This document shows positions 5,698-64,000 of a DNA stretch of 64,000 bases, one piece after another. The stretch is taken from assembly GCA_031266775.1 (NCBI GenBank), contig JAISAQ010000061.1, positions 1-64,000 on the forward strand, written 5' to 3'. The translations under genes were made by a program, and so were the position numbers. Under the pieces are notes generated by a model. The model saw nothing but the letters and a program-made list of their open reading frames with translations. It ran no database searches and was not told the origin of the DNA. Origin of the DNA: Treponema sp. (GTDB taxonomy: Bacteria; Spirochaetota; Spirochaetia; Treponematales; Breznakiellaceae). Every line of letters starts with the position of its first letter. Position 1 is the stretch's first letter.

Positions 5698-8104
5698 TAC
5701 CGGCGTTGCCAGTGTTGCCAGTGTTAATCGAGCCGATTATCGCCTCGACTTTTTCCGGCGTCAGATCCGGGCTCAGCATGGATATTGAACGGAGGGGCAT
5801 TTCCATTACCATCTTTTCCATCATGAGGCGCAGTCCAGGATCGTTTCCCGCCTGTGCGGCCACCGCGCGAAAATTTTCGGCCAGCTGTCTGCCTGTTTCC
5901 GTATCCTTGATGTCCTGGAGGGTATCGTTGACGGTGAAGGGATCGCCGGGTTTCCTTTCGGCGGGAGGAAGGGGCCTTCCCAAAAGCGCTTCGAAGGCCG
6001 CGCCGCTTACGCCGAATTCCCCTTTCCCCTGCGAGAAATAGTCCGCCGCCTTTTCCCTGAGGGGCGCAAGCGCTTTTTCAAGGCCGTCCCCTTCAACCTC
6101 AATGTCCGCCTCCAGGCGTGTGCCGGCGCTGCCCGAACAGGCAAGCACCGTATAGGTTCCGCCTTCCAGCGCCCAGCATGCGTGCGGCGCGTTGTAATAG
6201 GCAAAGCTCCGTTCATCGAGCGTCACGTTCACTGTCGTACTTTCACCGGGTTTAAGGGAAACCTTTACGAATTCCTTTAGTTCCCTGGGGGCCCTGAGTA
6301 TGGCGGAAGACTTTGCCGCGACATAGAACTGCACCGTTTCGGCGCCTTCCCTGTTTCCGGTATTTTTCACGGTGACTCCGGCCCGCAGCACGCCGCCTTT
6401 TTTGAAGGAAGTCCCCTCCAGTTTCAGGCGGGAATATTCGAAAGACGTATAGGAAAGCCCGTAACCAAAAGGCCAGGCCGTATCCTTGGCCGCGGCGTCA
6501 TAATGGCGGTAACCGACAAAGATGCTTTCGCGGTATTCGGCGGTCTTTCCCTTTCCCGGATACCAGCGGTAAGGCGGGGTGTCCTCAAGGGAAAGCGGCC
6601 AGCTTTCGGCAAGCCTGCCTTCGGGATTGGCCGCGCCGGAGAGAAGATCCGCCGCCGCGGCGCCCGACGCCTGCCCGCCCAGATACATGAGGAGTATTCC
6701 CTTTACCTTGTCCGCCCAGGGAAGAAGGACGGGCGCGCCCAAGTGGAGCACTACCGCCGTATTGGGATTCGCCGCCGCGACGGCTTCTATTAACTTGTTG
6801 TGGCTTTCGGGCATGTCAAGGGAAGAGCGGTCAAAGCCTTCGCTTTCGTATTCATCGGGAAGTCCCGCAAAGACAAGGGCCGCGTCTTTTTTTGCGGCAA
6901 GAGAGGCGGCCTTTTCTATAAGGGCGGCCATGTCCGCCCCGGTGGCCGTGTCCACCCCGGCGCCCGCCTCGTAACCCGGCTCGTACTCCGCCCAGAACCC
7001 CGCCGCGCGGAGCGCGTCAAAAGCGCCTTCAAGCCGCGTGGGGTTTATTTTGCTGCTCCCCGCGCCCTGATAGCGGGGAACTTTGGCGAAGGCGCCTATA
7101 ACCGCGACGCTTTTCCCCGCGGCAAGGGGCAGCATTCCTTCGTTTTTAAGGAGCACCGCCGATTTTACCGCCGCCTTCCGCGCAAGCGCATGATGGGCCT
7201 CCATGTCAGAGGAAGCTCCCTTGTGCCGCTCGAGGGTTTTTTGCGAGGCGAGGATCAGTTCAACGATCCGCAGCACAACGGCGTCAAGTTCTTCTTCGCT
7301 TAAAACACCGCTTTTGAGGGCCTTGAGGATTTTCATATCGTTGTACCCGCTTCCCCCGGGCATCTCCAGATCCAGAGAGGCCTTGACGGCGTCAACACGG
7401 TTGTCCATGGCGCCCCAATCCGTCATTACAAGTCCCTTAAAGCCCCATTCGTCGCGCAGAATACCGGAGAGGAGCCTTTTGTTTTCACATGCATAGGTTC
7501 CGTTGAGCCGGTTATAGGAACACATCACTGTCCACGGCCCGGATTTTTTTACCGCACGCTCAAATCCGGCAAGGTAAATTTCCCGCAGGGCCCGTTCGTC
7601 AACCACGGAATCGCTTGTCATGCGGCGCGTTTCCTGATTGTTGGCGGCGTAATGTTTGAGGCTTGTCCCCACGCCCTTTTGCTGAATGCCTTTTATCAGG
7701 GCCGCCGCCATTTCGCCAGTAAGGAAGGGATCTTCGCTGAAATACTCGAAGTTGCGGCCGCAGAGGGGGCTGCGCTTGATGTTCGCCCCCGGTCCAAGAA
7801 TGACGGAAACCCGTTCGGCAAGACATTCTTCGGCAATGGCCCCGCCCACTTCCCCGAGCAGATCACGGTCGAAGCTGCACGCCATGGCGGAGGCCGCGGG
7901 AAAACACGTCGCCGGAACACTGTCGCCGATACCCAGATGATCGCTTCTTCCCGCCTGTTTGCGGAGACCGTGAGGACCGTCCGTTACCATAATTGAAGAA
8001 AGCCCAAGACGCGTAACGCTCTTCAGGTTCCAGAAATCCAGCCCGGAACAAAGCGAGGCTTTTTCTTCGGGCGTCAATTCAGCGAGTATTTCCCCGGACG
8101 TCAT
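5687..8104 (-). CDS. Glycoside hydrolase family 3 beta-glucosidase-type enzyme
   Basis: An 805-residue cytoplasmic enzyme (no signal peptide) that should release terminal beta-linked glucose or xylose from imported oligosaccharides. The GH3 N-terminal barrel occupies about residues 1-280: TDGPHGLR near the start, KHYAANNQE, and the nucleophile Asp in VMTDWGAMDNR. The GH3 C-terminal sandwich follows (about 315-560, VAVIGAFAKVPRYQGAGSSKINP), then a fibronectin-III-like domain (VKNTGNREGAETVQFYV). A C-terminal helical extension ends in a short NTG/NAG repeat. GGGAG lies just before the ATG. It heads a leftward chain overlapping pcrA. Nearby arabinosidase and transporter genes suggest plant-polysaccharide catabolism, but the exact sugar cannot be read from sequence. 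Confidence 0.93.
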   Translation of the reverse strand: MTSGEILAELTPEEKASLCSGLDFWNLKSVTRLGLSSIMVTDGPHGLRKQAGRSDHLGIGDSVPATCFPAASAMACSFDRDLLGEVGGAIAEECLAERVSVILGPGANIKRSPLCGRNFEYFSEDPFLTGEMAAALIKGIQQKGVGTSLKHYAANNQETRRMTSDSVVDERALREIYLAGFERAVKKSGPWTVMCSYNRLNGTYACENKRLLSGILRDEWGFKGLVMTDWGAMDNRVDAVKASLDLEMPGGSGYNDMKILKALKSGVLSEEELDAVVLRIVELILASQKTLERHKGASSDMEAHHALARKAAVKSAVLLKNEGMLPLAAGKSVAVIGAFAKVPRYQGAGSSKINPTRLEGAFDALRAAGFWAEYEPGYEAGAGVDTATGADMAALIEKAASLAAKKDAALVFAGLPDEYESEGFDRSSLDMPESHNKLIEAVAAANPNTAVVLHLGAPVLLPWADKVKGILLMYLGGQASGAAAADLLSGAANPEGRLAESWPLSLEDTPPYRWYPGKGKTAEYRESIFVGYRHYDAAAKDTAWPFGYGLSYTSFEYSRLKLEGTSFKKGGVLRAGVTVKNTGNREGAETVQFYVAAKSSAILRAPRELKEFVKVSLKPGESTTVNVTLDERSFAYYNAPHACWALEGGTYTVLACSGSAGTRLEADIEVEGDGLEKALAPLREKAADYFSQGKGEFGVSGAAFEALLGRPLPPAERKPGDPFTVNDTLQDIKDTETGRQLAENFRAVAAQAGNDPGLRLMMEKMVMEMPLRSISMLSPDLTPEKVEAIIGSINTGNTGNAGNAG

Positions 8105-50926: not shown

Positions 50927-51583
50927 ATGGAGATCAGGCGGAAAATTCCCTCGGCGCCTTCTGTACGCAGGCTGCCTTCGTATTTGACCATTGTAAAACA
51001 GCTTCAACACGAAGGAAATGAGCATATTTCCGGAGCTCTTATAGCAAGAGAAATGGGCCTTGAACCGATTCAAATAAGAAAAGATCTTGCCATAACGGGC
51101 ATAACGGGCAAACCGAGAATAGGATACCCTGCCGGGGCGCTGGCGGACGCCATTGAACGTTTTCTGGGCTGGTACGACGTTCAGGACGCAGTCCTCGCGG
51201 GCGCGGGCAATCTGGGGAGCGCTCTCATGGGCTACCGGGAATTTCAGTCCCACTGTCTTAATTTTGTGGCGGCCTTTGACACCGATTCCCGGAAGATCGG
51301 CGCCGGCATTCATGGAATTCATGTTTTATCCATGGAAACGCTGGAAACAGAGGTCCGGCGCCGGGGAGTCAAAATTGCCGTCCTTACCGTCCCCGCCGAA
51401 GCGGCCCAGGCGGTTACCGATATTCTGGTAAGGGCGGGAATAGAGGGGATCTGGAATTTTACCAACGTAAAACTCAAAGTGCCCGGCAATGTAGTGGTCC
51501 AGAGGGAAGATCTTTCCTCAGGCTACGCCATGCTGAGCGTAATGATGAAAACCAGAAACCGGACGGAAAAGGAAAGCCCCTGA
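50927..51583 (+). CDS. rex: Redox-sensing transcriptional repressor Rex
   Basis: A 218-residue Rex repressor that senses the NADH/NAD ratio and controls fermentation and respiration genes. The N-terminal winged helix is IPSAPSVRRLPSYLTIVKQL, then SGALIAREMGLEPIQIRKDLAITG, with the family hallmark Q-I-R-K-D-L. The Rossmann domain starts DAVLAGAGNLGSALMGY (GAGNLG) and contains FDTDSRKIG and the domain-swap tail end. The ATG at 50927 is the only sensible start, since an in-frame TAG lies two codons upstream. Upstream sits the repeat array described separately. Confidence 0.96.
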   Translation: MEIRRKIPSAPSVRRLPSYLTIVKQLQHEGNEHISGALIAREMGLEPIQIRKDLAITGITGKPRIGYPAGALADAIERFLGWYDVQDAVLAGAGNLGSALMGYREFQSHCLNFVAAFDTDSRKIGAGIHGIHVLSMETLETEVRRRGVKIAVLTVPAEAAQAVTDILVRAGIEGIWNFTNVKLKVPGNVVVQREDLSSGYAMLSVMMKTRNRTEKESP

Positions 51584-51825: not shown

Positions 51826-52902
51826 TTAACCCAACAGTAACGCCGCATCGTCATAATAGGAAAAATTATCAACCATGCAGCCCAAAACAAGCTGGGGTAT
51901 GAACTTTCTGCTGCAGTCCTCCTTCCTGCGGATCCCCGTCAGATACTCGCAGGTTATCATGATGCTCTCCCGTCCAAATTCCGCCTGGTTCTGAAACAGG
52001 GTGGCGGTTAAACTGTGGGAACGCAGTTTTTCATTCAATTTGGGGTAGAGATCATGCCCAATTATGGCAACATCATGATACCCCGGATGTTTATCAAACC
52101 AGTCGCAGACCCCCAAGGCATTGTATGAGGTTACATAGATGCCGTCCAGATCCGGGTGAAGCCGCATCAGAGCTCCGGTTTGTCTATACGCGACCTTGTG
52201 ATCCTCATGGGTCTCGTACATTTTTACAACCTCAAGATTGTATTTTTCCGCATCCGCGTAAAAGCCTTCGATACATTCCCGGTGTACCAGCATGTTTTTA
52301 TCCCCCGGGAAGAGGGCTATTTTTTTCTTTCGCGTTTTGCCGGGAATTACCATCCCGAGAAATTCGGCGGCCATTTTTCCGGCCACATAGGTATTCATCC
52401 GCACACCCCCGATAAGACCGGGAATATCCTCCGCCCCAAAAATGGTATTGTATATGATGGGAATCCCCGCGGCGCCGATGCGTTCCAGTTCATTCCGGTA
52501 TATGTTAAATTGATGGCTGCAGGTTAAAATCAGGGCGTTGATTTTCTCCTTCCGTATCTGCCGGAGAATCTTGCGCAGATCTTCCGGCGTTTCCAGGGAA
52601 GGATAGGGGAACTCAAGAATATGGCATTTACTGTCCTTGAGTTCCAGTGCCGCCTTGCGTATACCCCCGGCGATATAATAGTAAAATTCTCCGGGTTCCA
52701 TCGGAAAAACCGCCGCAATCCGCAGCTCCTTGCGTACCAGAGCCCGGGCGGTCTCATTGGGGGTATAGTTCATCCGTACTGCGGTTTCCTGAATCAAAAG
52801 CCGGGTGCTTTCGCTTATTTGGGATTTGCCGGTCAAGGCCTTTGATACGGTATTCGCGCTGATCCCCAGATGCTTGGCGATGTCTTTTATGGTTGTACGC
52901 AT
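51826..52902 (-). CDS. LacI-family transcriptional regulator
   Basis: A 358-residue repressor. The headpiece [36 protein letters not shown] (residues 3-37) is a canonical LacI helix-turn-helix, followed by the hinge [16 protein letters not shown]. The rest is a periplasmic-binding-like sensor ([55 protein letters not shown]), probably binding a sugar. AAGGG precedes the ATG. It is divergent from the glycosidase/transporter operon, with 270 bp between the two starts that hold a candidate double operator with a central CG, as LacI proteins prefer. It should control that operon. Confidence 0.94.
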
Positions 52903-53100: not shown

Positions 53101-53108
53101 ATATAAAG

Positions 53109-53144
53109 TGAACGTTAACTTATTTGATGATAAGTTAACGTTAA
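53109..53144. promoter_or_regulatory. Double LacI-type operator
   Basis: TTAACGTTAA (53135-53144) is a perfect CG-centred palindrome and TGAACGTTAA (53109-53118) is a one-mismatch copy; their centres are 26 bp apart. Together they form a 13-bp perfect inverted repeat (53111-53123 with 53130-53142). They lie between the -10 and the ribosome site of the glycosidase gene, beside the divergent LacI gene. A T-run after the second arm means a hairpin attenuator is also conceivable. Confidence 0.65.
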
Positions 53145-53172
53145 TTTTTTGAGAAGAAGAAGGAGCATTTTT

Positions 53173-54168
53173 ATGGAAACATTTGATTTTTCTTCGGTTC
53201 GGGGTTTTAACTATCAACCAAGCGCGGGCAGTACCAGTTTTGAAAACTGGCGTTATTTCAGGCCGGAGCTTTTTGAACTGGAACTGCGCCGGGGAAAACA
53301 ATATTTTCCCAAGTTCAACACGGTCCGCTATTGGCTTTCCTGGGATGCTTTTATACGGGAACCGCGTAATTTTGCGGATCATTTTGAAGTTGCCCTGAAA
53401 ATTGCCGATTCCCTGGGTTTACGGGTAATGCCGTGCCTGTTCAACCGCTGGCATAATGAATTTAACGATAACGGCGGCCTTTACCTGGATAATATTATTC
53501 CTGGATATGGATGGGCTTACAAACCTCATTTTTACAAAGAATATTTTGATATGATTGTAGGGGAGCATAAGAACGACAAACGGATCCTGGTATGGGATCT
53601 CTGTAACGAACCGTTCTCTTATACCCGGCGGCTCGATCAAATGGGAGAGATTCCTGACATTGAATACGCCTGGCTCAAAGAGATGTATGATTATATAAAG
53701 GCGATGCCGGTTAGCCAGTATGTTTCTTTCAGCCCCCATCCAGGCACAGGATTAACCGCAACATTTAAAGAATGGGAAGAGTGGAATGAAAAAATGGCGG
53801 CTTTGATGGATGTCATTGTAATTCACCCCTATTTTACGGCCGATCAAAGTGATAGCGCCGCCAAGGCCTTGTACGAAAAACAATTGGATTCCTATGCGGC
53901 CCTTGGCGCCAAGCTGAAAAAAGGCATCATTGCCAGCGAAACCTGCTGGGGATCATTGGATGACGAATGGCGGATCTCAAATATCCGGTATACCATGACG
54001 GAATTAAAGAAACGAAAAATCGGTATTATGCCTCATGCCCTGCACCACAGCCTTGTGGCTGATTTGCATTTGCCTGAATATGGACCTGTGGGCGGCCCTG
54101 GGGATCTTCGTTTTATTAACGCGGACGGTACTTTGCGCAAAGGACATGAGGTATACAACGAATTTTAA
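53173..54168 (+). CDS. Cytoplasmic TIM-barrel glycoside hydrolase (GH5-like)
   Basis: A 331-residue hydrolase without a signal peptide, thus acting on imported oligosaccharides. It has a (beta/alpha)8 pattern with the start VRGFNYQPSAGST, acid/base Glu146 in WDLCNEPF and candidate nucleophile Glu256 in IIASETCWG, plus substrate-site HPY and HHS. It resembles GH5/clan A enzymes but I cannot assign the family or linkage. I start at 53173 (AAGGAG 8 nt upstream) and not at the upstream in-frame start at 53149. First gene of the LacI-regulated operon, 59 bp before the binding protein. Confidence 0.82.
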   Translation: METFDFSSVRGFNYQPSAGSTSFENWRYFRPELFELELRRGKQYFPKFNTVRYWLSWDAFIREPRNFADHFEVALKIADSLGLRVMPCLFNRWHNEFNDNGGLYLDNIIPGYGWAYKPHFYKEYFDMIVGEHKNDKRILVWDLCNEPFSYTRRLDQMGEIPDIEYAWLKEMYDYIKAMPVSQYVSFSPHPGTGLTATFKEWEEWNEKMAALMDVIVIHPYFTADQSDSAAKALYEKQLDSYAALGAKLKKGIIASETCWGSLDDEWRISNIRYTMTELKKRKIGIMPHALHHSLVADLHLPEYGPVGGPGDLRFINADGTLRKGHEVYNEF

Positions 54169-54227
54169 GGTGAGTTTCACTGTTGACGCGGTGTTACTAA
54201 ATTATGAAGATAAATTTGGAGGCAAAG

Positions 54228-55565
54228 ATGAAGAATTTCAGAAATGCAACCATGGTTGCCGTGGTTTTACTTGCCCTTTTATCCATTGCGGCTTGTAAAA
54301 AAGAAAGTGCCGCAGCAGCCGCAGGTGGAACCACTCAAGCTGCCCGTGAAATTGTTTTTTGGGATATGCTATGGGGCCCTGCCGATACATATCCCGCGAT
54401 GGTCCAAGAGATGGTCAATCAGTTCAATTCAGTGAACACGGATAACATTCATGTAACCATGCAGAATATCCCTTGGGATAACTTCTACCAGGTGTTCCTT
54501 ACGGCGGTAACTTCACGGGCGGCGCCGGATGTCTCGACCGGAGCGTTTATGCAGTCCATTCAGTATGCGGAAATGGGAGAAGGTCTTTCCCTGGATCCCA
54601 TTGTGGAACAGTGGAAGAAGGAAAACAATCCCATTCTGAATGATTACGACGAGGCCCTGTTTAACCTGCACATGTATGAGGGAAAACATTATGGCTTGCC
54701 CTGGATGCTCGATCCACGGTTGATCTTGTACCGTACCGATTATTTTGAGCAGGCCGGAATCACGAAACTGCCCGCCAATTGGGCGGAATTTCTTGAGACC
54801 TGCGCCAAACTGAAGCAGACTCTTCCTCCGGACGTATTTCCCTTCGTGTTTCCGGGCGGCGGTGATTATAACGGCCTCCAGTCCCTGATTACCTTCCTGG
54901 TTCAAAACAACGTCGGCCTTACCGATGTGAATGGTCAGCCGGACTATACCAATCCGAAGGTTACGGAGGTCCTGCGGTTTATCAATACCATGTATGTCAA
55001 TGGGTATATTCCTGACGGCCTCCCGGCTTACAAGCAAACCGATGCCGAAAAACTGTTTCAGGCGGGAAAGGCGGCCATGCTTATGCAAGGCATGACGGAC
55101 TTGAAGGATTTTCCGGAGATTGACGCAAACGCCGCCGTCTTACCCCCCATGGCCGGCTCCAGCGGTACGGCGAAGTATTATACCTGGGCAAACGCCATCG
55201 GCGCCTATTCTCAGACCAAGGATCCGGAAGCAAGTTTAGCCTTTATCAAATGGTTCCTGGAAAATGAACTTCCTCTTTGGCCAAAAGGCTTGCTTACCTC
55301 CATACCCGTCCGGAAAAGTTTCCGTTCGGATCCTTATTTTACCAATGCCTGGCAGAAAAAACAGGTTATAGAACTGGTACTTCCTACAGTAGTGCCAGTG
55401 ATATACCCGTCGCCGAATATCTACCTGCCCTTCTCGGTTATTGAAGGCGAAGCAACGCCGATGATGGGCTTGGTAAAAGCCTGCGCGAGAAATCCTGATT
55501 ACAGGGCGATACAACAGGAAGTACAGGATATCATGTTAGCTGCCTGGGCGGAATTTGATATGTAA
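54228..55565 (+). CDS. Sugar ABC transporter substrate-binding lipoprotein (family 1)
   Basis: A 445-residue binding protein with a lipoprotein signal (VVLLALLSIAAC, lipidated Cys near residue 24), followed by a low-complexity Ser/Ala linker. The body has IVFWDMLWGPADTYPAMVQEMVNQFN, LPWMLDPRLILYRTDYFEQAG (hinge), and GKAAMLMQGMTDL, typical of the MalE/CUT1 group that binds di- and oligosaccharides. I start it at 54228, where GGAGG lies 5 nt upstream; an in-frame ATG at 54204 is less likely. It is followed by a stem-loop and two permeases. No ATPase is in the operon, so it must use one encoded elsewhere (MsmK-like), as CUT1 systems often do. Confidence 0.94.
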   Translation: MKNFRNATMVAVVLLALLSIAACKKESAAAAAGGTTQAAREIVFWDMLWGPADTYPAMVQEMVNQFNSVNTDNIHVTMQNIPWDNFYQVFLTAVTSRAAPDVSTGAFMQSIQYAEMGEGLSLDPIVEQWKKENNPILNDYDEALFNLHMYEGKHYGLPWMLDPRLILYRTDYFEQAGITKLPANWAEFLETCAKLKQTLPPDVFPFVFPGGGDYNGLQSLITFLVQNNVGLTDVNGQPDYTNPKVTEVLRFINTMYVNGYIPDGLPAYKQTDAEKLFQAGKAAMLMQGMTDLKDFPEIDANAAVLPPMAGSSGTAKYYTWANAIGAYSQTKDPEASLAFIKWFLENELPLWPKGLLTSIPVRKSFRSDPYFTNAWQKKQVIELVLPTVVPVIYPSPNIYLPFSVIEGEATPMMGLVKACARNPDYRAIQQEVQDIMLAAWAEFDM

Positions 55566-55596
55566 GGTTTGGTAATTCCAAAGAGTAGACAAACGG

Positions 55597-55621
55597 GGGT
55601 GGCATTTCAAAAATACCACCC
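55597..55621 (+). other. Intercistronic stem-loop after the binding-protein gene
   Basis: GGGTGGCATTT (55597-55607) and AAATACCACCC (55611-55621) pair over 11 bp with one mismatch. No T-run follows. Such stem-loops after binding-protein genes often stabilise the upstream mRNA and raise its level over the permeases. Confidence 0.65.
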
Positions 55622-55647
55622 TCTTGCATTTTAAAGGAGACCCAACC

Positions 55648-56547
55648 GTGAATTCAAAGCCATTTGGCAGATTAAGACTGCGGAATAACAGTCTTGGGTA
55701 CTGTCTGCTTATTCCCGCTACTTTACTCATCCTTGCAATCAGTATCTATCCGTTGATACGGGGGATTACTCTCGGTTTTATGAGTTACAGCATACGCCGT
55801 ATACGGGCGGCTGGATTTAACGGGATTGACAACTTTATCCGGATCTTGACAACCGACGCCGAATTCTACGGTACCTTGCTGTTCTCCTTTGGTTATGCCC
55901 TCGCAGTGGTGGTTCTGTCCTATGTGCTCGGCATGTGTTTCTCATTGCTTCTCAACCGGAACATAAAATTCCGGGGTTTTTTCCGCGCCATGATTCTTAT
56001 CCCGTGGATCATTCCCCCCGTGGTCGCCGCGACAAACTGGACCTGGCTCTTAAATGATCAGCTCGGATTTGTTAATCTTATGCTGCGCAAAGCAGGTTTT
56101 ATTGATAAACCAATACTCTTTCTGGCGGATCCCGTCCTGGCCCGCTTAACCGTCTGTTTTACCGGGGCGTGGAAATCATTTCCCTTTATGACAATAGTGC
56201 TCCTTTCCGGCATGCAGGGTATTCCCGACGAACTCTACGAATCGGCATCCATTGACGGCGCCGGTTTTTTCCGTTCCTTCCGCCATATCACGATACCCAT
56301 GCTAAAAAATGTTACCATGATCAGCACAGTCCTTATGTTTATATGGACCTTTAACAATTTCGAAAATATATACCTCCTGACCAAAGGCGGACCCGCAAAT
56401 GCAACCTTTGTTCTGCCCATCCTGTCCTACTACACGGCATTCTTCCGGTCCCAGCTTGGATATGCGTCGGCAATTTCCACCCTTATGCTGGGTGTGCTCC
56501 TGGTCCTCGCGCTAATCTATATGCGTATATTGCGGACAAGCAAATAA
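55648..56547 (+). CDS. Sugar ABC transporter permease (MalF/CUT1 type)
   Basis: A 299-residue inner membrane protein of about six helices: LGYCLLIPATLLILAISIYPLIRGITLGF first, and the EAA loop GIPDELYESASIDGAGFFRSFRHITIPML, which docks on the ATPase. I start it at GTG 55648 because GGAG lies 8 nt upstream; a TTG at 55624 would start inside the stem-loop flank. Overall it is a typical MalF-like partner of the next gene. Confidence 0.93.
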   Translation: MNSKPFGRLRLRNNSLGYCLLIPATLLILAISIYPLIRGITLGFMSYSIRRIRAAGFNGIDNFIRILTTDAEFYGTLLFSFGYALAVVVLSYVLGMCFSLLLNRNIKFRGFFRAMILIPWIIPPVVAATNWTWLLNDQLGFVNLMLRKAGFIDKPILFLADPVLARLTVCFTGAWKSFPFMTIVLLSGMQGIPDELYESASIDGAGFFRSFRHITIPMLKNVTMISTVLMFIWTFNNFENIYLLTKGGPANATFVLPILSYYTAFFRSQLGYASAISTLMLGVLLVLALIYMRILRTSK

Positions 56548-56558
56548 AGGAAGAATTT

Positions 56559-57395
56559 ATGAGGCTGAAAAACAGAAAAGCTGTTAAAAATATATTAACC
56601 TACCTTGGATTATTGCTGATAATTATTATTGTTGATTTTCCTTTTTTCCAGATGGTATCGGTTTCTTTTAAAACCAGGGCGGAGGCATTGGGAACTACAA
56701 CTTTTTTTCCCCGGCACATAAGTACCGATAATATTATCCGTGTATGGATGCAGACCGATTTTCCCCGTAATATCCTGAACAGTATTATTGTTGCGGTAGC
56801 TTCTACAGTATGTTGCATAATAATTGCGGTTATCGCCGGTTACGCCCTTTCCCGTTTCAAGGGTAAAGTATTTTCGGGATACGCTGTCCTGCTCCTTATG
56901 CTTCAGTTGTTTCCCGCTATACTATTGCTTATTCCTCTTTTTGTTATCTTTACCGGCCTGGGCCTCGTGGATACGCTGTTCGCCTGTGTTCTGGCATATA
57001 CCACGACAAACCTCGCCTTTTCAATCTGGATGATCAAGGGATTCATGGATTCTATTCCCTTTGATCTGGAAGAGGCGGGCATGATAGACGGATGTACCCA
57101 ATTCATGGCCTTTCTGCGGATCATCATTCCCATTTCCATGCCCGGTATATCCACCGTCGGGATCTTTACCTTTATCAACTCCTGGGGTGAGTATACCCTC
57201 GCCTCAATCCTTCTCAGGAGTGACAAGAATATCACGCTGACACTGGGGCTGCAAAAATTTGTGCTTCAGTTTACCGCTGATTGGCCCGCATTGATGACGG
57301 CTTCGTCAATCGCGACCATCCCTACAATCCTTTTTCTGGTATTCGCTCAGAAATACCTGATCCGCGGCATGTCTGCCGGGGCGGTAAAAGGATAA
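56559..57395 (+). CDS. Sugar ABC transporter permease (MalG/CUT1 type)
   Basis: A 278-residue permease. Its first helix is ILTYLGLLLIIIIVDFPFFQMVSVSF; the EAA loop is DSIPFDLEEAGMIDGCTQFMAFLRIIIPI, and the C-terminus FLVFAQKYLIRGMSAGAVKG is the usual MalG ending. AAGGAAG precedes the ATG. It forms the channel with the permease 11 bp upstream. Confidence 0.94.
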   Translation: MRLKNRKAVKNILTYLGLLLIIIIVDFPFFQMVSVSFKTRAEALGTTTFFPRHISTDNIIRVWMQTDFPRNILNSIIVAVASTVCCIIIAVIAGYALSRFKGKVFSGYAVLLLMLQLFPAILLLIPLFVIFTGLGLVDTLFACVLAYTTTNLAFSIWMIKGFMDSIPFDLEEAGMIDGCTQFMAFLRIIIPISMPGISTVGIFTFINSWGEYTLASILLRSDKNITLTLGLQKFVLQFTADWPALMTASSIATIPTILFLVFAQKYLIRGMSAGAVKG

Positions 57396-57434
57396 GGACA
57401 ATATTGTGAATATCCATGACATGAGGAGCCTGAC

Positions 57435-57491
57435 ATGAATAGTACCCATATCGATGCCCCGGTTCGGGCTTACGGGGTTGTAAGAACATGA
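57435..57491 (+). CDS. Possible 18-codon leader peptide ORF
   Basis: An ATG at 57435 with GAGGAG 8 nt upstream opens an 18-codon frame (MNSTHIDAPVRAYGVVRT) whose TGA overlaps the ATG of the zinc dehydrogenase gene (ATGA). The dehydrogenase has only a weak GGGG of its own, so coupling through this short frame could drive its translation. No product homology is recognisable; it may be incidental. Confidence 0.35.
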   Translation: MNSTHIDAPVRAYGVVRT

Positions 57492-58537
57492 AGGCCCTGG
57501 TAAAAGCCGCAAAAGGCGAAGGTAATATTGAGGTACGGGATGTCCCTGCTCCTAAAATAAAAAACCATGACGATGTGTTAATACGCATAAGCGCCGCCGG
57601 GGTATGCGGAACGGATCTGCATATCTATCATGATGAATTTCCCTATTGGCCGCCGGTGGTGCTGGGCCACGAATTCTCCGGCCTTGTAACCGAAACGGGT
57701 AACGGCGTTACACGGTTTAAGCTTGGGGATCGGGTCGTCGCGGAACCTCATACCCATTTCTGCGGAAAGTGTTATCTCTGCAGGTCCGGTAACATACAGC
57801 TCTGCCAGGAGAAACGTTCCCCCGGCTGGGGTATAGATGGCGCCTTTGCCGAATTTATCGTAATGCCGGAACTGTTTCTCCACCGTATCCCCGATATCCT
57901 AAGCGACGAGATTGCCGCTTTGGCGGAGCCTATGGCGATTGTGGTGACAGGGGTGCTTGAGCGGGGCAAGTCCTGCCCCGGCGATACGGTGGTAATCGTC
58001 GGCGCAGGTCCGATAGCATTGCTATCGGTAGCAGCGGTAAAAGCCGCAGGAGCAAAAGAAATATTTGTCCTGGGGACCAATGCGGATGAAGAGCAGCGTT
58101 TTCCGGCGGCCAAGTCCCTTGGAGCGGACAGGATCATCAATGTTATGAATACTGATGCTTCCGCAGCAATTCTTGAAGAAACCAGGGGTGTAGGGGCGGA
58201 TCATGTAATTGAGGCAAGCGGTTCCGCAGCGGGGGTGAATACGGCAGTGGAGGCGGCAAAAAAATGCGGCAGGATCACCGTACTGGGGCTGCCGGGGGAA
58301 GAAAAAATTCCCGTACCCTGGGGGGATATGGTAAAAAAAGCCCTGGATATCAGCTTTTGTTTTAGTTCAAGTGTATCTTCCTGGGAAAGGGCGATTTCGA
58401 TCCTTTCATCATCACCAGGCAATTTCAATGCGTTGATTTCACACCGCGCAAAGATTGATGACTGGAAAAAAGTTTTCACCGATATTGAGACCGGGAAGGC
58501 AATTAAAGTTTTGTTTGTTCCGGAAAGGATTAAATAA
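57488..58537 (+). CDS. Zinc-dependent medium-chain alcohol/sugar dehydrogenase
   Basis: A 349-residue MDR-family dehydrogenase, probably oxidising a sugar or polyol with NAD(P). Catalytic zinc ligands are Cys40 (AGVCGTD), His61 and Glu62 (GHEFSG); the structural zinc has four Cys (92, 95, 98, 106 in FCGKCYLCRSGNIQLC). Rossmann loop VVIVGAGPIALLS. It resembles sorbitol/threonine dehydrogenases. The stop overlaps the next dehydrogenase start by one base (TAATG). Part of the LacI-controlled catabolic block. Confidence 0.92.
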   Translation: MKALVKAAKGEGNIEVRDVPAPKIKNHDDVLIRISAAGVCGTDLHIYHDEFPYWPPVVLGHEFSGLVTETGNGVTRFKLGDRVVAEPHTHFCGKCYLCRSGNIQLCQEKRSPGWGIDGAFAEFIVMPELFLHRIPDILSDEIAALAEPMAIVVTGVLERGKSCPGDTVVIVGAGPIALLSVAAVKAAGAKEIFVLGTNADEEQRFPAAKSLGADRIINVMNTDASAAILEETRGVGADHVIEASGSAAGVNTAVEAAKKCGRITVLGLPGEEKIPVPWGDMVKKALDISFCFSSSVSSWERAISILSSSPGNFNALISHRAKIDDWKKVFTDIETGKAIKVLFVPERIK

Positions 58538-59592
58538 TGGCAGCCATGCAAGTAATTTCCGTTAACGCGCCCCATGATGTACAATTTATTGAAAGGGAGA
58601 TTAAACAACCCGGTCTTGGCGAGGTACTTGTCAAAGTCATGTCCGCCGGAATTTGCGGAACCGATGCGGATATCATTTCCGGGGATCTTATCTATTTTAA
58701 AAACGGAATGGCCTCTATGCCTATTGTGCCGGGACACGAGTGGTCAGGCCAAATCGTCGAATGTGGACCCGGGGTCCGAAACTTTGCGGTGGGAGATCGG
58801 GTAACCGGTGAATGTACCGTCGCCTGCGGTCACTGCAAATACTGCGTAGAAGGTTACACCAACATGTGTATTAACCGTACCGAAACCGGGGTGATGAACC
58901 GGGACGGCGGCTACGCCGAGTATATCACCTTTCCCGTAACCAGCCTGCACCAGTGTAATGGCCTGGAATATGATACCGGCGCCTGTGTGGAACCTGCCTG
59001 CATTGCCATGAGCGCCATAAAACGTTCGGGCATTACCCCCCGGGACAATGTACTCGTCATAGGCCCGGGCCCAATCGGGCTTATGGCCGCCCAAATCGTA
59101 AAAAAAATTTATCATGCCAACAAGGTCATCCTGTCCGGAACCCGGGACGATAGGCTGGCCCGGGCTTCGGGCTACGGTCTGGATGGGATTATCAATGTCC
59201 GGCGGGAGAATTTACCGGAGAAGGTCCGGGACAGTACCCGGGGGGAGATGATCGATGTGGTCATTGAAGCTGCCGGAGCTCCCTCTTCCTTTACGGATAT
59301 GGAAAAGATCCTTAACCCTGCCGGAAGAATATCCCTGCTCAGTTTTTTTGGATCCAAAGAAGTAAAATGCAACTGGGATTTTATCAGTACCAATAGTATT
59401 ACTGTTTATGGATCCCTCGGCAGTCCCGGTGTATGGCCTTTTGTAATCGCAAAACTGGAAAGCTGCGATATTGAGGTAGACAGTATTATCTCCCACCGGC
59501 TGCCCCTGAAAAGCCGGGAAGATTTTCTTAACGCTTTTTACCTTATGGAAGAACGCAGGGATAATGTATGCAAGGTGATACTCCATCCGTAA
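58537..59592 (+). CDS. Second zinc-dependent medium-chain dehydrogenase
   Basis: A 351-residue MDR enzyme, paralogous to its neighbour. Catalytic ligands Cys40 (AGICGTD), His67 and Glu68 (GHEWSG); structural zinc Cys 97, 100, 103, 111. Rossmann loop VLVIGPGPIGLMAAQ. The two enzymes differ clearly in the substrate lid (this one has SGDLIYFKNGM at 48-58), so they likely act on successive or different intermediates. AAAGGA precedes the ATG. A 171-bp gap follows before the SDR gene. Confidence 0.92.
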   Translation: MAAMQVISVNAPHDVQFIEREIKQPGLGEVLVKVMSAGICGTDADIISGDLIYFKNGMASMPIVPGHEWSGQIVECGPGVRNFAVGDRVTGECTVACGHCKYCVEGYTNMCINRTETGVMNRDGGYAEYITFPVTSLHQCNGLEYDTGACVEPACIAMSAIKRSGITPRDNVLVIGPGPIGLMAAQIVKKIYHANKVILSGTRDDRLARASGYGLDGIINVRRENLPEKVRDSTRGEMIDVVIEAAGAPSSFTDMEKILNPAGRISLLSFFGSKEVKCNWDFISTNSITVYGSLGSPGVWPFVIAKLESCDIEVDSIISHRLPLKSREDFLNAFYLMEERRDNVCKVILHP

Positions 59593-59763
59593 ACTATTCC
59601 GGAGGAAACCCTGAGCGGTGATTTTGGCGAAGCTTCCTGGTATGAAAAATATACCAAAATTCCGCTTGTGTTATCCCATAGGTACGGATAAAATAAAATT
59701 GGGAGTTTTGATATGGATGTTACATTGGGAACAAGTCATGAGGTGTCATAAGGAAAATCACAG
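59593..59763. other. Gap with decayed coding traces
   Basis: No convincing gene. Just after the stop of the dehydrogenase the same frame stays open (TIPEETLSGDFGEASWYEKY, then TKIPLVLSHRYG, then stop), which looks like real protein and may be a fragment of a lost gene. A GTG frame (59618-59767) with GGAGG upstream overlaps the SDR start but reads as less plausible protein. Either could couple translation to the SDR. Confidence 0.35.
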
Positions 59764-60564
59764 ATGAAAGGTTTACACGGAAAGGCCGCCGTCGTTACCG
59801 GCGGTTCCAGAGGGATCGGCAAGGCAGTGGTAGAACGTCTGCTTGAGGAAGGGGTAAGGGTTTTGTTCTGTGGCCGTAATGAAAAAACAGGTCTTGAAAC
59901 CCTCGCCGAATTGCAAAAAACATACGGTGATAAGGCCGCCTTTATAGCCGGTGATATGGAAGATAGAGATATGCCGGGTGTGCTTATTGCGAAGGGGAGA
60001 GATCTCTTTGGTGAATTGGATTTTTTGGTGAATAACGCCTTTCCCTTTACCGCAAAGGGCCTTGACGCAACTTATGAAGACTGGGTCCATACCTTCATGG
60101 CCGGACCTGCCGCCTATGCCCGGACGATAACGGAATTCGTTAAACAGCGGGAAAAGAAAGAGGGGGCTGTGGTATGTGTTTCCAGTATTTCCGGTCATAT
60201 TCCTCAGCCTAACCGCTGGACCTACAACGCCGCCAAGGGGGCTGTAAAGCAGCTGATCCGCTGCGCGGCTTTGGACCTTGCCCCTGCAATCCGGGTAAAT
60301 TGCATAAGTCCCGCATGGGTTAAGACCGGCGAAGTCCTCAAGGCAACCCCCAAGGGGACTTGGGAAAGTGTCCCCCAGGCGTGGAACGACTACCATATGC
60401 TGCAAAGACTCCAGGAACCGTCGGAGATAGCGGCGGTCATTGCCTATCTCCTGAGTGACGACGCCTCGGTGATAACCGGACACGACCTCTTCGCCGATTC
60501 AGGATACCTTGCCATGGGACCCGAAGGGCTCGGTAAGACCGCGAATTTCGCCGGCAGCACTTAA
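59764..60564 (+). CDS. Short-chain dehydrogenase/reductase
   Basis: A 266-residue classical SDR. TGGSRGIGKAV (NAD(P) site, residues 12-22), NNAF near 89 (Phe replaces the usual Gly), catalytic YNAAKGAVKQ and a C-terminus of SVITGHDLFADSGYLAMGPEG. Ala-Ala between Tyr and Lys is normal. The third member of the dehydrogenase set in this operon. AAGGA lies before the ATG. Confidence 0.92.
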   Translation: MKGLHGKAAVVTGGSRGIGKAVVERLLEEGVRVLFCGRNEKTGLETLAELQKTYGDKAAFIAGDMEDRDMPGVLIAKGRDLFGELDFLVNNAFPFTAKGLDATYEDWVHTFMAGPAAYARTITEFVKQREKKEGAVVCVSSISGHIPQPNRWTYNAAKGAVKQLIRCAALDLAPAIRVNCISPAWVKTGEVLKATPKGTWESVPQAWNDYHMLQRLQEPSEIAAVIAYLLSDDASVITGHDLFADSGYLAMGPEGLGKTANFAGST

Positions 60565-60600
60565 CATACGGTAATTATTTCGTTTAATGGAGAAAATTCT

Positions 60601-61254
60601 ATGAGTACTATTATCGATTTGACCGCTCCAATGTTTGACGGTGCTCCGACCATGCCCATGGATCCGAAAATGTCCCTGACCTGGCATTGTTCCCTGGATA
60701 CCTTGGGATACAACCTGTCCCGGCTCACCACTTCAACCCATCAGGGTACCCATATGGACGCGGCCAAACACTTTTATAAAGACGGCGAGTGTATTGATGA
60801 GGTATCCCTGGATCGCTGTATCGTGCGGGCGGTAAAGGCGGATCTGACCGGCAAAAAACCCGGAGACCCCATCGAACCTGCCGACCTGGAACCTTATGAA
60901 AAGTTTATAGGACAGGGTCCGGCCCGGGGGACCGGTATACTGCTCCATACAGGCTGGGACAAGAAGTTTCCGGATCAATCTTTCTTTTCGGGTTTTCCCT
61001 ATGTAACCAAAGGGTTGGCCGATTGGTTCACGGAAAAAAAAGCTGGCTTGGTGGGCATGGATATGCCCACCCCCAACGGTACCGACTGGAAATACGTCCA
61101 TATAAAAATGCTCGGCGCAGGAATTCTGATAGTGGAAGGTTTGGCCAACATGGAACGGCTTCCTTGGGACACCCTCTTTACCTTTTATTCCCTTCCCCTC
61201 AAATTACAGGGCCGGGACGGTTCGCCGGTCCGGGCTATCGCTATTGCAGATTGA
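60601..61254 (+). CDS. Cyclase-family metal-dependent hydrolase
   Basis: A 217-residue protein of the cyclase/kynurenine formamidase-like family. The metal motif is STHQGTHMDAAKHF (His47, His51, Asp53, His57), and the end region has GILIVEGLANMERL, typical of the family. Members hydrolyse amides or lactone-like ring bonds. Within a sugar-oxidising operon a role as a lactonase is an inference only. GGAG precedes the ATG. The gene lies 36 bp after the SDR gene. Confidence 0.9.
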   Translation: MSTIIDLTAPMFDGAPTMPMDPKMSLTWHCSLDTLGYNLSRLTTSTHQGTHMDAAKHFYKDGECIDEVSLDRCIVRAVKADLTGKKPGDPIEPADLEPYEKFIGQGPARGTGILLHTGWDKKFPDQSFFSGFPYVTKGLADWFTEKKAGLVGMDMPTPNGTDWKYVHIKMLGAGILIVEGLANMERLPWDTLFTFYSLPLKLQGRDGSPVRAIAIAD

Positions 61255-61338
61255 GTTTTTTTGCGGAAAGGTTGTGTTCCGTCTTGATGAGGTGTCCGGG
61301 GCAGGTCGTTTCAGGCAGAAAAAATGACGGAGAAAGCT

Positions 61339-62079
61339 ATGTTTATACTGGAAGGCAAGACCGCCCTCATTACCGGCGGAGCGGGAGGCATAGGCGCTGC
61401 CTGCGCCAAAATGTTTGCCCGGCACAGGATCGGCGCCCTGACACTTACCGACGTACGGAAGGAGAATCTGCTGCGGACTGCCGGGGAAATTGAAAAAGAA
61501 TGGGGGCTCGCCTGCATCTGCATTGACGCGGACATCCGCAAAGAAGAGGCCGACGCCGCTATGGTGGCGGAAGCGGCGGACAGGATGGGCCGGCTGGATA
61601 TTCTGGTAAATTGCGCCGGGATCTCCCGGATGGGCAGACTCTACGATGTAACCGGAGAACAGTGGGACTTTACCTTTGATATCAACGTAAAGGGCCTCTT
61701 TTTTGTCTGCCGGGAGGCCTTCAGAATAATGGAGAAACAGAAGAACGGCTGCATCATCAATCTGGCATCCCAGGCGGCCCGGGGAGGCGGCATAGTGGTC
61801 ACCCCCGACTACCCGTCCTCCAAGGCGGCGGTGCTTACCCTCACCAAGAGCCTCGCCAAGTCCGGCGCCCCGGCCGGCATCCGGGTCAACACCGTTTCTC
61901 CCGGCCTCATCGCCACGGAAATGACCGCAACATTTGGTTACGATCCGGCCTCCGTACCCCTGGGGCGGATCGGCAAGGGTGACGATGTGGCGGGGGCGGT
62001 GCTCTTTCTTGCCAGTGATTACGCTTCTTACATCACCGGGGCCTGTATTGATGTTAACGGCGGGATTGCCATGATCTAG
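61339..62079 (+). CDS. Short-chain dehydrogenase/reductase
   Basis: A 246-residue SDR of the FabG/glucose-dehydrogenase-like group. TGGAGGIGAACA, NCAGISRMG, catalytic YPSSKAAVLTLTK and the end DYASYITGACIDVNGGIAMI. I start it at 61339 because GGAG lies 9 nt upstream; an in-frame ATG at 61324 has no ribosome site. It ends the rightward operon, facing the mutarotase gene. Confidence 0.93.
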   Translation: MFILEGKTALITGGAGGIGAACAKMFARHRIGALTLTDVRKENLLRTAGEIEKEWGLACICIDADIRKEEADAAMVAEAADRMGRLDILVNCAGISRMGRLYDVTGEQWDFTFDINVKGLFFVCREAFRIMEKQKNGCIINLASQAARGGGIVVTPDYPSSKAAVLTLTKSLAKSGAPAGIRVNTVSPGLIATEMTATFGYDPASVPLGRIGKGDDVAGAVLFLASDYASYITGACIDVNGGIAMI

Positions 62080-62111
62080 GAGAAGGGAAGGCTTGGCGGA
62101 ATTCTGTTCCT

Positions 62112-62438
62112 TTATTCCAGGTAAAAAACTTCCCGCAGAAATTGCAGCCCCGTGTTGAGATTTTCATTCTCCATGGACACATCCAGCATTTTTGAGGTGA
62201 TGTTATTCCAGCGGATGCAGTCGGAGTCCTCCGTCATTTTTGCAAAAGCTTCGGCGGGATCACCGTCACATTCAAATTCGTAGAAAAATTGATTGCCGTT
62301 CTGAAATATGGAATAATTTTTTATTCCCGCCACCGAATGGGCCTTCATAATTTCCGGCCATGGATTAAGATGCATTTTTACATACTCTTCCACACATTCG
62401 GGTTTTACGTTCCACACCCAGGCGTATTTTTTGGACAT
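62112..62438 (-). CDS. rhaM: L-rhamnose mutarotase-like protein
   Basis: A 108-residue single-domain protein of the L-rhamnose mutarotase family (AWVWNVKPECVEEYVKMHLNPWPEIMKAHSVAGIKNYSIFQNGN, and the end LQFLREVFYLE). The enzyme interconverts alpha and beta L-rhamnose (or a related 6-deoxysugar such as L-fucose) in the cytoplasm. His29 or so and the Tyr/Trp pairs fit the active site. The ATG at 62438 has GGGAGGAGG in front; seven earlier codons are open but less likely. It lies 54 bp after the GH116-like gene on the same strand. Confidence 0.88.
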   Translation of the reverse strand: MSKKYAWVWNVKPECVEEYVKMHLNPWPEIMKAHSVAGIKNYSIFQNGNQFFYEFECDGDPAEAFAKMTEDSDCIRWNNITSKMLDVSMENENLNTGLQFLREVFYLE

Positions 62439-62469
62439 TTTCCTCCTCCCTTGAAACAATTCTGCAATA

Positions 62470-62493
62470 AGGGAACTTAACCGGAAGTTCCCT
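62470..62493. repeat. Palindrome between GH116-like and mutarotase genes
   Basis: AGGGAACTT (62470-62478) and AAGTTCCCT (62485-62493) are perfect 9-bp arms around AACCGG. The outer arms match the GGAACTT of the palindrome at 24664, so this may be a shortened member of the same family. The right arm overlaps the glycosidase stop. Confidence 0.6.
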
Positions 62494-64000
62494 ATCGCTG
62501 TTTTTTACCGGCGGCTATAATCCGGTTTACCAGATTGTTTTGGTCGCTGAAATACTGCGCCAGGTTTTTTCCTTCCAGCGCTACCGGCAGCAGCCACTGG
62601 ATCATATTGGAATAATAATCATGGCCCCATATCGGCTGTCCGCTGCAAGAATCGTAAAGGCAGTACTGATCCCAGGGAGTACAGGTATGGAGGGCTATCA
62701 TTTCATAAAGCCGCTTGCCAATTTCAAGCCCCTGCTCCCGGCGTCCCTTGTAGAGGAAAGTCGTCACTGCGGCAAAACTCTCCCCAATAAATATCTGGGC
62801 GGAATGATCGTTGGCTTCGTCCAGTTGTATCCGGGATTCTAAAACACCGCCGCCCTTATCCCTGCTTCTTTCAAACTGAACGGAATAGAAACGTTCTCCA
62901 TTGGGAGTAACACCGTTAACCATGCCAAAAGCGGTGGCTCCTGCATTGAGCCTTAAAACAGCATCCAGAACCAGTCCGGTTTTCTTTTCATCCACCACGG
63001 GACCGGTACCGGTAATTGCAGCACACCATTCCGTCATAAGCTGATTCCCCAAGCTTACCTCGCAGTTTTCCTTTCCCTCAGGATTTGTCCACAGCCGGTA
63101 GTAGTCACCCCGCCAGAGTTTTTCGTCAAAGGCCTTTATACCCTTTGCAAAGGCACCGTCACATTCAGCGGCGAACTCCCCGTCCTCCATCAGGTTTGCT
63201 GTAGCGGCGGCGGCCTTGAGGGTGGCAAGCCAAACGCCCGCCACATATACCGAAGTGCCCCACCAGGGCCAAATATCGTAGAATTGATTGGCCGGCCATA
63301 TTTCGCCGGGAAGTACGTGGGGTTGATCGTTGACCAGGCCGTCGCCGTCATCATCCAGGGTATAATGATACCGTACGGCGCGCTTGAGGGATTCGTAGTA
63401 TTCCTTCAGTTTTTCCTTATTCCCGGTACGCTGGTACCACCGGAGGATCTGCTGAACATAGTACCCTGCGTCCAGGGGGTGCTGGCAGTGATACCGTACA
63501 TCCCGCATAGAAGTTTCAAGGCCGAAGGAAAAGCAGATCTCCCCATCCTCAGCCTGGAAATGGCGGAAGGCCCTGAGGGCGGTTTCTTCCAGTTCGGGAA
63601 AGAAAAACAGGAAGGGAAAATGTCCGTGCATACGGCATACCATGGTTTCCGTAATCGGACAGCCACGGTGGCTCTCATTGTGGGTGAACCACCCGCAATC
63701 CCCGCTCCACCATTCGTCCTTTCGGGTTTTGGCGATCCAAACGGTGTTTTTAGCAATACTGTACATGTTCTGGACAAGGGCGTCCTTGAGCCAGGGGGGA
63801 TAATCTTCCGCGTAGATGATCCCCTGCCAGTTCTGTGACCGCCTGAGCCAAAGATCGAAATTATCCAGCACCAATTGCGCCGTTTCTGCGGCCGATTTAT
63901 AAAGGGTAGCATAAAAGTTAACATGGGCTTCGTTGCCTTTGTCCCGCCAGTGGGGAGCATACCAGGAAAATACCGCCCGAAGAGAGACCGTTTCTCCCGG
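62492..64000 (-). CDS. GH116-like glycosidase, N-terminus beyond the window
   Basis: 502 visible codons with the 5' end cut by the window edge: reading continues in frame through 64000 (VFSWYAPHWRDKGNEAHVNFYATLYKSAAETA) with no start. The (alpha/alpha)6-barrel pattern is similar to GH116 (DUF608) enzymes, which act on beta-glucosides, xylosides or glucosylceramide: WSGDCGWFTHNESHRGC, DDDGDGLVNDQPHVLPG, FYDIWPWWGTSVYVAGVWLATLKAAAATA, and FGMVNGVTPNGE. The final DQYCLYDSCSGQPIWGHDYYSNMI matches the family end. Exact substrate unknown. Upstream of rhaM on the minus strand, it likely shares its transcript. Confidence 0.85.
   Translation of the reverse strand, partial: PGETVSLRAVFSWYAPHWRDKGNEAHVNFYATLYKSAAETAQLVLDNFDLWLRRSQNWQGIIYAEDYPPWLKDALVQNMYSIAKNTVWIAKTRKDEWWSGDCGWFTHNESHRGCPITETMVCRMHGHFPFLFFFPELEETALRAFRHFQAEDGEICFSFGLETSMRDVRYHCQHPLDAGYYVQQILRWYQRTGNKEKLKEYYESLKRAVRYHYTLDDDGDGLVNDQPHVLPGEIWPANQFYDIWPWWGTSVYVAGVWLATLKAAAATANLMEDGEFAAECDGAFAKGIKAFDEKLWRGDYYRLWTNPEGKENCEVSLGNQLMTEWCAAITGTGPVVDEKKTGLVLDAVLRLNAGATAFGMVNGVTPNGERFYSVQFERSRDKGGGVLESRIQLDEANDHSAQIFIGESFAAVTTFLYKGRREQGLEIGKRLYEMIALHTCTPWDQYCLYDSCSGQPIWGHDYYSNMIQWLLPVALEGKNLAQYFSDQNNLVNRIIAAGKKQR

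Follow-up and report, generated by a model that had tools for sequence, protein, structure and literature searches.

L-rhamnose is common as a sugar of plants and microbes (PMC3870299), and the accessible text of that paper describes both the RhaA/RhaB/RhaD route and a four-enzyme non-phosphorylating route for its use. In the LRA pathway of fungi, Azotobacter and Sphingomonas, as outlined in the same text, oxidation of C1 by a dehydrogenase is followed by lactone hydrolysis. For SAR202, fucose and rhamnose oxidation has been reconstructed around mandelate-racemase-type enzymes (PMC10444878), and two related large spirochetes use rhamnose by a non-conventional route with RhaK (PMC13067680). Within the accessible parts of these papers, bacterial rhamnose routes are either phosphorylating or run via a dehydratase and an aldolase. 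Here, we analyzed a Treponema contig of 68,260 bases (JAISAQ010000061.1); its bases 1-64,000 are referred to as the window, and the contig ends 4.3 kb past it. We lean towards reading operon A of this contig (53173-62079, plus strand) as a LacI-controlled composite, in which an oligosaccharide importer is joined to a module, found across phyla, that would oxidize L-rhamnose or a closely related 6-deoxyhexose without phosphorylation. G-, L- and C-numbers denote genomes, loci and contigs in the comparison set, G000 being the window's own genome (3.1 Mb in 108 contigs, 87% complete).

The last three genes of operon A encode a short-chain dehydrogenase/reductase (SDR1, 59764-60564; PF13561, E 8.3e-47), a metal-dependent hydrolase (CYC, 60601-61254; PF04199, E 3.4e-27) and a second short-chain enzyme (SDR2, 61324-62079; PF13561, E 4.7e-56). 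Orthologs of CYC (69-100% identity) occurred in 13 of 145 genomes of the family, with the next best match at 35%, and the nearest named relatives were Treponema metagenome-assembled genomes (MAGs). Scanning the contigs of GTDB species with CYC yielded 41 loci, 35 of them module-like at 63-86% identity; the remaining six were 26-35% identical and were left out of the locus table. The module-like loci belong to Spirochaetota, Bacteroidota (Prevotellaceae, Tannerella, Dysgonomonadaceae) and Bacillota, among the last the named strain Christensenella hongkongensis HKU16 with SDR1-CYC in L069; several came from one MAG, and many ended at contig edges. SDR1 was present in 27 of the 35 loci, a RhaS-type solute-binding protein (SBP) in 13, SDR2 in 11, the genes E1a, E1b and E2 of a pyruvate dehydrogenase (PDH)-like complex in 10 each and RhaM in seven. 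Identity thresholds in the locus table were 48% for most genes, 45% for aldehyde dehydrogenase (ALDH), SucC, SucD and LPD, and 30% for GH78; the RhaT-type labels given there to the ABC ATPase are working names. Among ten relatives from three phyla, SDR1 was 63-88% identical. SDR1-CYC is a pair conserved across phyla, and the window contains a rearranged member of the module built around it.

Several markers connect the module to rhamnose. Beside SDR1-CYC, relatives carry a CUT2 transporter whose SBP reached 269.6 bits on the RhaS model TIGR02637, below the cut-off of 342. Members of the RhaT symporter family (PF06379) were found in L046, L047, L073 and L074, that of L047 scoring above the NCBIfam cut-off (373.9 vs 369), and GH78 alpha-L-rhamnosidase genes in L051 (two), L056 and L058, the last being under the identity threshold of the locus table and detected via Pfam only. 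In the relative G034, SDR1, CYC, a GH116 gene and RhaM form one run (L023/L040), and a GH78-like gene adjoins a cluster of ALDH, SucCD and LPD genes. These markers, each of them a family name, are independent of one another and stem from three phyla; they suggest that the substrate is likely L-rhamnose or a close 6-deoxyhexose. A model-made reading of the DNA letters (hereafter the sequence-only reading) had proposed that a 6-deoxysugar is oxidized here outside the usual phosphorylating pathway, and this is supported by SDR1 and CYC orthologs adjoining RhaS-like, RhaT, GH78 and RhaM genes. It had also grouped the L-rhamnose mutarotase RhaM with the dehydrogenases; this applies to L023/L040, where RhaM follows SDR1-CYC-GH116, and not to the window, where it belongs to the opposite operon.

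From the gene identities, their conservation and co-occurrence, the rhamnose markers of the relatives and the operator sites described below, we infer the substrate and each of the following reactions. RhaM would interconvert the anomers, SDR1 would oxidize C1 to give the lactone, CYC would hydrolyze the lactone to the aldonate, and SDR2 would convert the aldonate into a keto-aldonate. The roles proposed for SDR1 and CYC draw on the adjacency of a sugar dehydrogenase and a metal-dependent hydrolase whose HxGTHxD site is intact. The best models for SDR1 were those of sugar or generic dehydrogenases, none of them above cut-off, and both SDR1 and SDR2 contain the YxxxK motif. CYC carries the metal motif HQGTHMD at residue 47, and HxGTHxD did not vary in either of two ortholog sets, of 13 and 12 members; its predicted fold (mean pLDDT 77, weak near residues 40-45) was closest to enzymes of the kynurenine formamidase/isatin hydrolase type, so that both the metal motif and the fold place it among the PF04199 cyclase-hydrolases. 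Judged by these features, a predicted lactonase that follows SDR1 and yields the aldonate is a better reading of CYC than an opener of an oxidized ring, the role tentatively given to it by the sequence-only reading. In tblastn searches of plasmids, CYC gave at most 34% identity among the matches listed, and SDR1 and ADH2 (see below) gave no match at E limits of 1e-35 and 1e-50. One plasmid CYC match lies in a Rhizobium locus with genes for UxuA, a member of the mannitol dehydrogenase family and a Zn oxidoreductase, which weakly favors a role in sugar-acid metabolism.

Next to CYC, a gene of family DUF4432 (PF14486) was seen in L041, L042 and L045, 91-100% identical among the three, and may add one more mutarotase-like protein to the module. 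In L041, a contig of 3.4 kb, two CYC copies, one of them cut by the contig end, face each other around SDR2 and the DUF4432 gene.

Two sets of downstream genes were found, never in one locus: a dihydrodipicolinate synthase (DHDPS)-type aldolase and a D-2-hydroxyacid dehydrogenase (12/35 loci each), or the PDH-like E1/E2 genes (10/35), mostly accompanied by SDR2, whose orthologs come after E1/E2 in relatives. All 12 aldolase loci are from Bacteroidota MAGs, and the 10 E1 loci comprise eight from Spirochaetota and two from Bacillota. In the relatives with E1 loci, the chain of the keto-aldonate would be broken by a PDH-like E1/E2(/E3) complex dedicated to the module, possibly in an acetoin-like manner; in Bacteroidota, the aldolase together with the D-2-hydroxyacid dehydrogenase would do so. 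The module E1a (at least 79% identity; next match 52%) was present in 12 of the 145 family genomes, that is, in 11 of 13 CYC carriers and one of 132 others (p 9e-14, Fisher test, which here and below counts genomes as independent, though they are kin). E1a is missing from two carriers, G000 and G018, of which the second has E2 and SDR2 at the edge of a contig. A CoA-acylating ALDH (at least 76%), in most cases with SucC and SucD behind it and often LPD as well, occurred in 14 genomes (10 of 13 carriers vs 4 of 132 others; p 3e-10) and scored 395 bits on the model of the acylating sulfoacetaldehyde dehydrogenase SauS, below the cut-off of 600. The substrate of SauS is an anionic aldehyde, and SucCD natively acts on C4 dicarboxylates. 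SDR2 might oxidize C5 of L-rhamnonate, E1/E2/E3 might cleave between C4 and C5 to give acetyl-CoA and a C4 semialdehyde acid, and ALDH and a SucCD-type ligase might then yield a dicarboxylate and ATP, a bold and tentative scheme that we consider rather unlikely. The CH3-CHOH-CHOH end of L-rhamnonate would thereby be treated like 2,3-butanediol, the product of SDR2 being an acetoin-like 5-keto-rhamnonate, and such a split would dispense with dehydratase, kinase and aldolase. The C2 of L-rhamnonate is of the D type. For the Bacteroidota set, hydroxypyruvate and lactaldehyde may be the products of a putative 2-oxidation of L-rhamnonate with subsequent aldol cleavage.

Relatives of the module E1 at 45-53% identity were found in sugar operons on plasmids of Rhizobium, Sinorhizobium, Priestia and Clostridioides and in acetoin operons of Enterococcus and Acinetobacter. 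Acetoin dehydrogenase complexes split an alpha-ketol into acyl-CoA and an aldehyde. In the acetoin dehydrogenase operons, on Enterococcus and Acinetobacter plasmids, E1 genes 45-46% identical to those of the module lie beside a 2,3-butanediol dehydrogenase gene; the module E1a, in contrast, formed its own clade (100/99) and was placed nearer to the sugar-operon E1 than to the acetoin E1 with weak support (72/66). PDH-like E1/E2 genes were also seen inside sugar PTS or ABC operons on plasmids of Rhizobium, Clostridioides, Sinorhizobium and Priestia (L107, L146, L148, L150). This suggests that PDH-like complexes in sugar breakdown are a wider theme.

Compared to the LRA pathway, the module has a cyclase-family hydrolase, no dehydratase in its loci, and the PDH-like complex or the D-2-hydroxyacid dehydrogenase/DHDPS-type pair downstream. 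The aldolase or diketo hydrolase step of that pathway was not found in the window locus, and the DHDPS-type aldolase was seen in Bacteroidota loci only. The lactonases described for the LRA pathway are not known to be of the cyclase family. With the classical RhaA/RhaB/RhaD pathway, the module has RhaM, RhaS-like and RhaT-like parts in common; unlike that pathway, it is without isomerase, kinase and class II aldolase, and those of them that were found in G000 sit at another locus (G000:C93). Neither "cyclase" nor "spirochaet" occurs in the accessible text of PMC3870299, and the accessible part of PMC13067680 does not mention the SDR1-CYC module. In the open-licence PMC literature, to which subscription papers and preprints do not belong, no cyclase-family or PDH-like rhamnose pathway was found; as far as searched there, the combination is new, in agreement with the sequence-only reading, which had not recognized it as a described pathway. 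If the proposed route is correct, it would need neither kinase nor dehydratase to arrive at acetyl-CoA or keto acids in anaerobes of three phyla, a PDH-like complex would be the dedicated partner of a compact gene set, and the cyclase-family hydrolase would gain a function.

The gene for the LacI-family regulator (51826-52902, minus strand; PF00356, E 6.2e-11; Peripla_BP_4, PF13407, E 4.1e-21) is divergent from operon A. Between it and the GH5-like gene that opens operon A lie two probable LacI operators, an imperfect palindrome at 53106-53121 (AAGTGAACGTTAACTT) and a palindrome at 53132-53147 (AAGTTAACGTTAATTT). With up to three mismatches, scanning the window gave four matches (the two palindromes on both strands) vs 0.32 expected from shuffles. 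With up to two mismatches, the pattern occurred at three places in the whole genome, two of them upstream of operon A, and the reversed-pattern control gave none. The identical 16 bases are present in the family genome G100, upstream of an ortholog of ADH2 (60%) and beside a LacI ortholog (79%), which supports a dedicated operator for the LacI of operon A. The palindromes are probably this predicted dedicated operator of the divergent LacI, which would place operon A under its control. The third site (G000:C19:51541) was set aside as a chance match, since its surroundings consist of phage-like genes. These genes (L138, 2326-9075) are integrase- and primase-like by eye. Tail to tail with the LacI gene lies a frame at 50927-51583 (plus strand) that reads like a putative Rex-type redox regulator.

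Operon A runs in the order GH5-like gene, CUT1 SBP, two permeases, ADH1, ADH2, SDR1, CYC, SDR2, with gaps of 11-171 bases, a one-base overlap between ADH1 and ADH2, and all nine reading frames intact. Its importer part comprises the GH5-like gene (53173-54168), the SBP (54204-55565; SBP_bac_1, E 1.1e-33) and permeases a (55624-56547; BPD_transp_1, E 5.4e-15) and b (56559-57395; E 2.3e-16). A paralogous cassette without oxidative genes is located at G000:C94 (L143, 7869-12064) in the order SBP, GH5-like, permease, permease; it is 78% identical for the GH5-like protein, 67% for the SBP and 84% for each permease. A partial copy, likewise without oxidative genes, was found in the sister species G049. 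As these importer paralogs lack oxidative genes and the oxidative part is found in the widespread module, operon A appears to have been fused from a native oligosaccharide importer and an oxidative cassette of that module. The glycosidase family of the GH5-like protein, which occurred in three of 390 genomes of the order (E ≤ 1e-30), is unsure: it scored 21.1 bits on PF00150, below the gathering score of 23.5, and matched PDB sequences at E 0.001-0.5 only, the two best being GH5 mannanases; the best fold matches of its low-confidence predicted model (mean pLDDT 62.8) were GH5 enzymes.

Several observations weigh against the rhamnose reading of operon A, and they lend weight to other explanations. 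RhaA was present in 83 of the 145 family genomes, in 12 of 13 CYC carriers vs 71 of 132 others (p 0.007), and in 13 of 16 CYC carriers outside the family. On these counts, we rejected the idea that the module replaces RhaA as the sole rhamnose route; the module would rather add to the isomerase pathway or serve a related sugar, and the presence of RhaA in carriers speaks more for a different but related sugar than for a second route for rhamnose. Apart from the module, G000 has a rhamnose-type locus (G000:C93, L095, 5711-13213) in which a CUT2 importer, a RhaM paralog and a class II aldolase accompany RhaA; within it no kinase was seen, kinases not having been searched for. The RhaS and RhaM of the module are clearly diverged from these copies (41% and 28%). 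All this would suit a substrate neighboring L-rhamnose (another 6-deoxyhexose, a modified rhamnose, L-mannose or L-lyxose), with rhamnose itself handled by RhaA and the aldolase, yet a RhaT above its curated cut-off and GH78 genes share runs with SDR1-CYC, and we regard this explanation as unlikely. Further, the scores of RhaS, RhaM and the ADH enzymes on their models are mostly under the curated cut-offs, the window contains neither an alpha-L-rhamnosidase nor a RhaS-type importer, SDR1 is missing from eight of the 35 loci (in some owing to the contig end), and the operator pattern was not found before operon B in the 162 bases available up to the contig end, so that an operator shared by operons A and B was rejected. 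The sequence-only reading had seen no kinase, isomerase or aldolase, which is right for this stretch of the contig and wrong genome-wide, and it had named an adjacent kinase and aldolase outside the window as evidence against itself; such evidence exists in part, in that RhaA and a class II aldolase are encoded in the genome, elsewhere and not adjacent.

It is likewise improbable, in our view, that the module serves an ordinary LRA-type route, in which the first two steps would be identical, an L-rhamnonate dehydratase would be encoded elsewhere, SDR2 or the medium-chain dehydrogenase/reductase (MDR) enzymes would act as 2-keto-3-deoxyrhamnonate 4-dehydrogenases, and the products would be pyruvate and lactate or lactaldehyde. 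The DHDPS-type aldolases would suit its last step in Bacteroidota, strong matches to the dehydratase superfamily MR_MLE were obtained in 9 of 16 non-family carriers, G020 and G093, and an MDR-type keto-deoxyrhamnonate dehydrogenase appears in the reference list of PMC10444878 as far as accessible. However, none of the mapped module loci contained a dehydratase, and 11 of 13 spirochete carriers, including G000, had no strong MR_MLE match (IlvD/EDD- and UxaA-type enzymes were not searched), so the familiar 2-keto-3-deoxy pathway does not readily suggest itself; moreover, the PDH-like complex has no place in the classical scheme. In G000, neither the module E1 (best E1b 42%, no match for E1a) nor the ALDH was found, leaving the oxidation chain open-ended there, and E1a, or E2 in the case of G018, is present in 12 of 13 carriers. 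A fused E1 of G000 (41-42%), accompanied by E2- and E3-type genes of its own, was rejected as the module E1/E2, as it looks like a general complex. The G000 cassette could accordingly be an incomplete leftover, or serve partial oxidation only with excretion of the sugar acid, but all nine frames are intact, the operators are conserved, and the near relative G034 has its E1 genes on a separate contig (L089). With the assembly just 87% complete and chance loss possible, a true absence of E1 and ALDH is not claimed, and we consider a leftover or excretion cassette quite unlikely.

The two MDR zinc dehydrogenases of operon A have complete zinc motifs. ADH1 (57488-58537; PF08240, E 2.5e-31) is of the L-threonine 3-dehydrogenase/polyol type, its best NCBIfam model being L-threonine 3-dehydrogenase (253 bits, below the cut-off of 380), and ADH2 (58537-59592; PF08240, E 3.8e-28) is the second such enzyme. 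The sequence-only reading had treated the four dehydrogenases as one set, and this is not supported by their distribution. ADH1 (at least 72%) was found in three of 145 family genomes, G000, G052 and G057, all CYC carriers (p 6e-4), with orthologs of 72-73% in the latter two and SDR2 adjoining it in G052; ADH2 (at least 60%) was found in two, G000 and G100, both CYC carriers. ADH1 and ADH2 thus appear to be rare additions to a module with SDR1 and SDR2 as its core. Upstream of the transporter genes in L042, a 94-codon frame (2541-2825) 87% identical to ADH2 is apparently a remnant. Thermotoga maritima has an oxidative inositol route with IolG, IolM and IolN. The module resembles it in having zinc dehydrogenases similar to scyllo-inosose 3-dehydrogenase and a hydrolase, and differs in carrying rhamnose markers where that route has inositol genes. 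Inositol-type IolM was rejected as an identity for ADH1 and ADH2, which scored 216.5 and 204.9 bits on NF041097 (cut-off 450).

Operon B, on the minus strand, converges with operon A at 62,080-62,112 and carries no dehydrogenase gene, these being confined to operon A. It starts beyond the window: the genes of a separate CUT1 importer (contig positions 64707-68098) come first, followed by the GH116-like gene (62492-64000, true start at contig position 64693; PF12215, E 4.4e-15) and, as its last gene, that of the RhaM/YiiL L-rhamnose mutarotase (62112-62438; PF05336, E 1.3e-23). RhaM scored 83.7 bits on PF05336 (gathering score 23.4) and 44.8 on the narrower TIGR02625, below its cut-off of 99.6. 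Past position 64000, where the sequence-only reading had advised looking for missing steps, the contig holds this second importer and, up to its end at 68260, no isomerase, kinase or aldolase. All gene types named by that reading were recovered with Pfam and NCBIfam profiles and motif checks. It had, however, merged the two convergent operons, with RhaM and GH116 on the minus strand, into a single unit and had placed the LacI gene within 53173-64000, outside which it lies; of its two glycosidases, the GH116 enzyme is firm (PF04685, E 4e-33, 115.6 bits vs a gathering score of 26.3) and the GH5 call weak. Lastly, a run of about 20 G at the end of contig C14 (L002, about 6240-6260) seems to be an artefact of sequencing or assembly.

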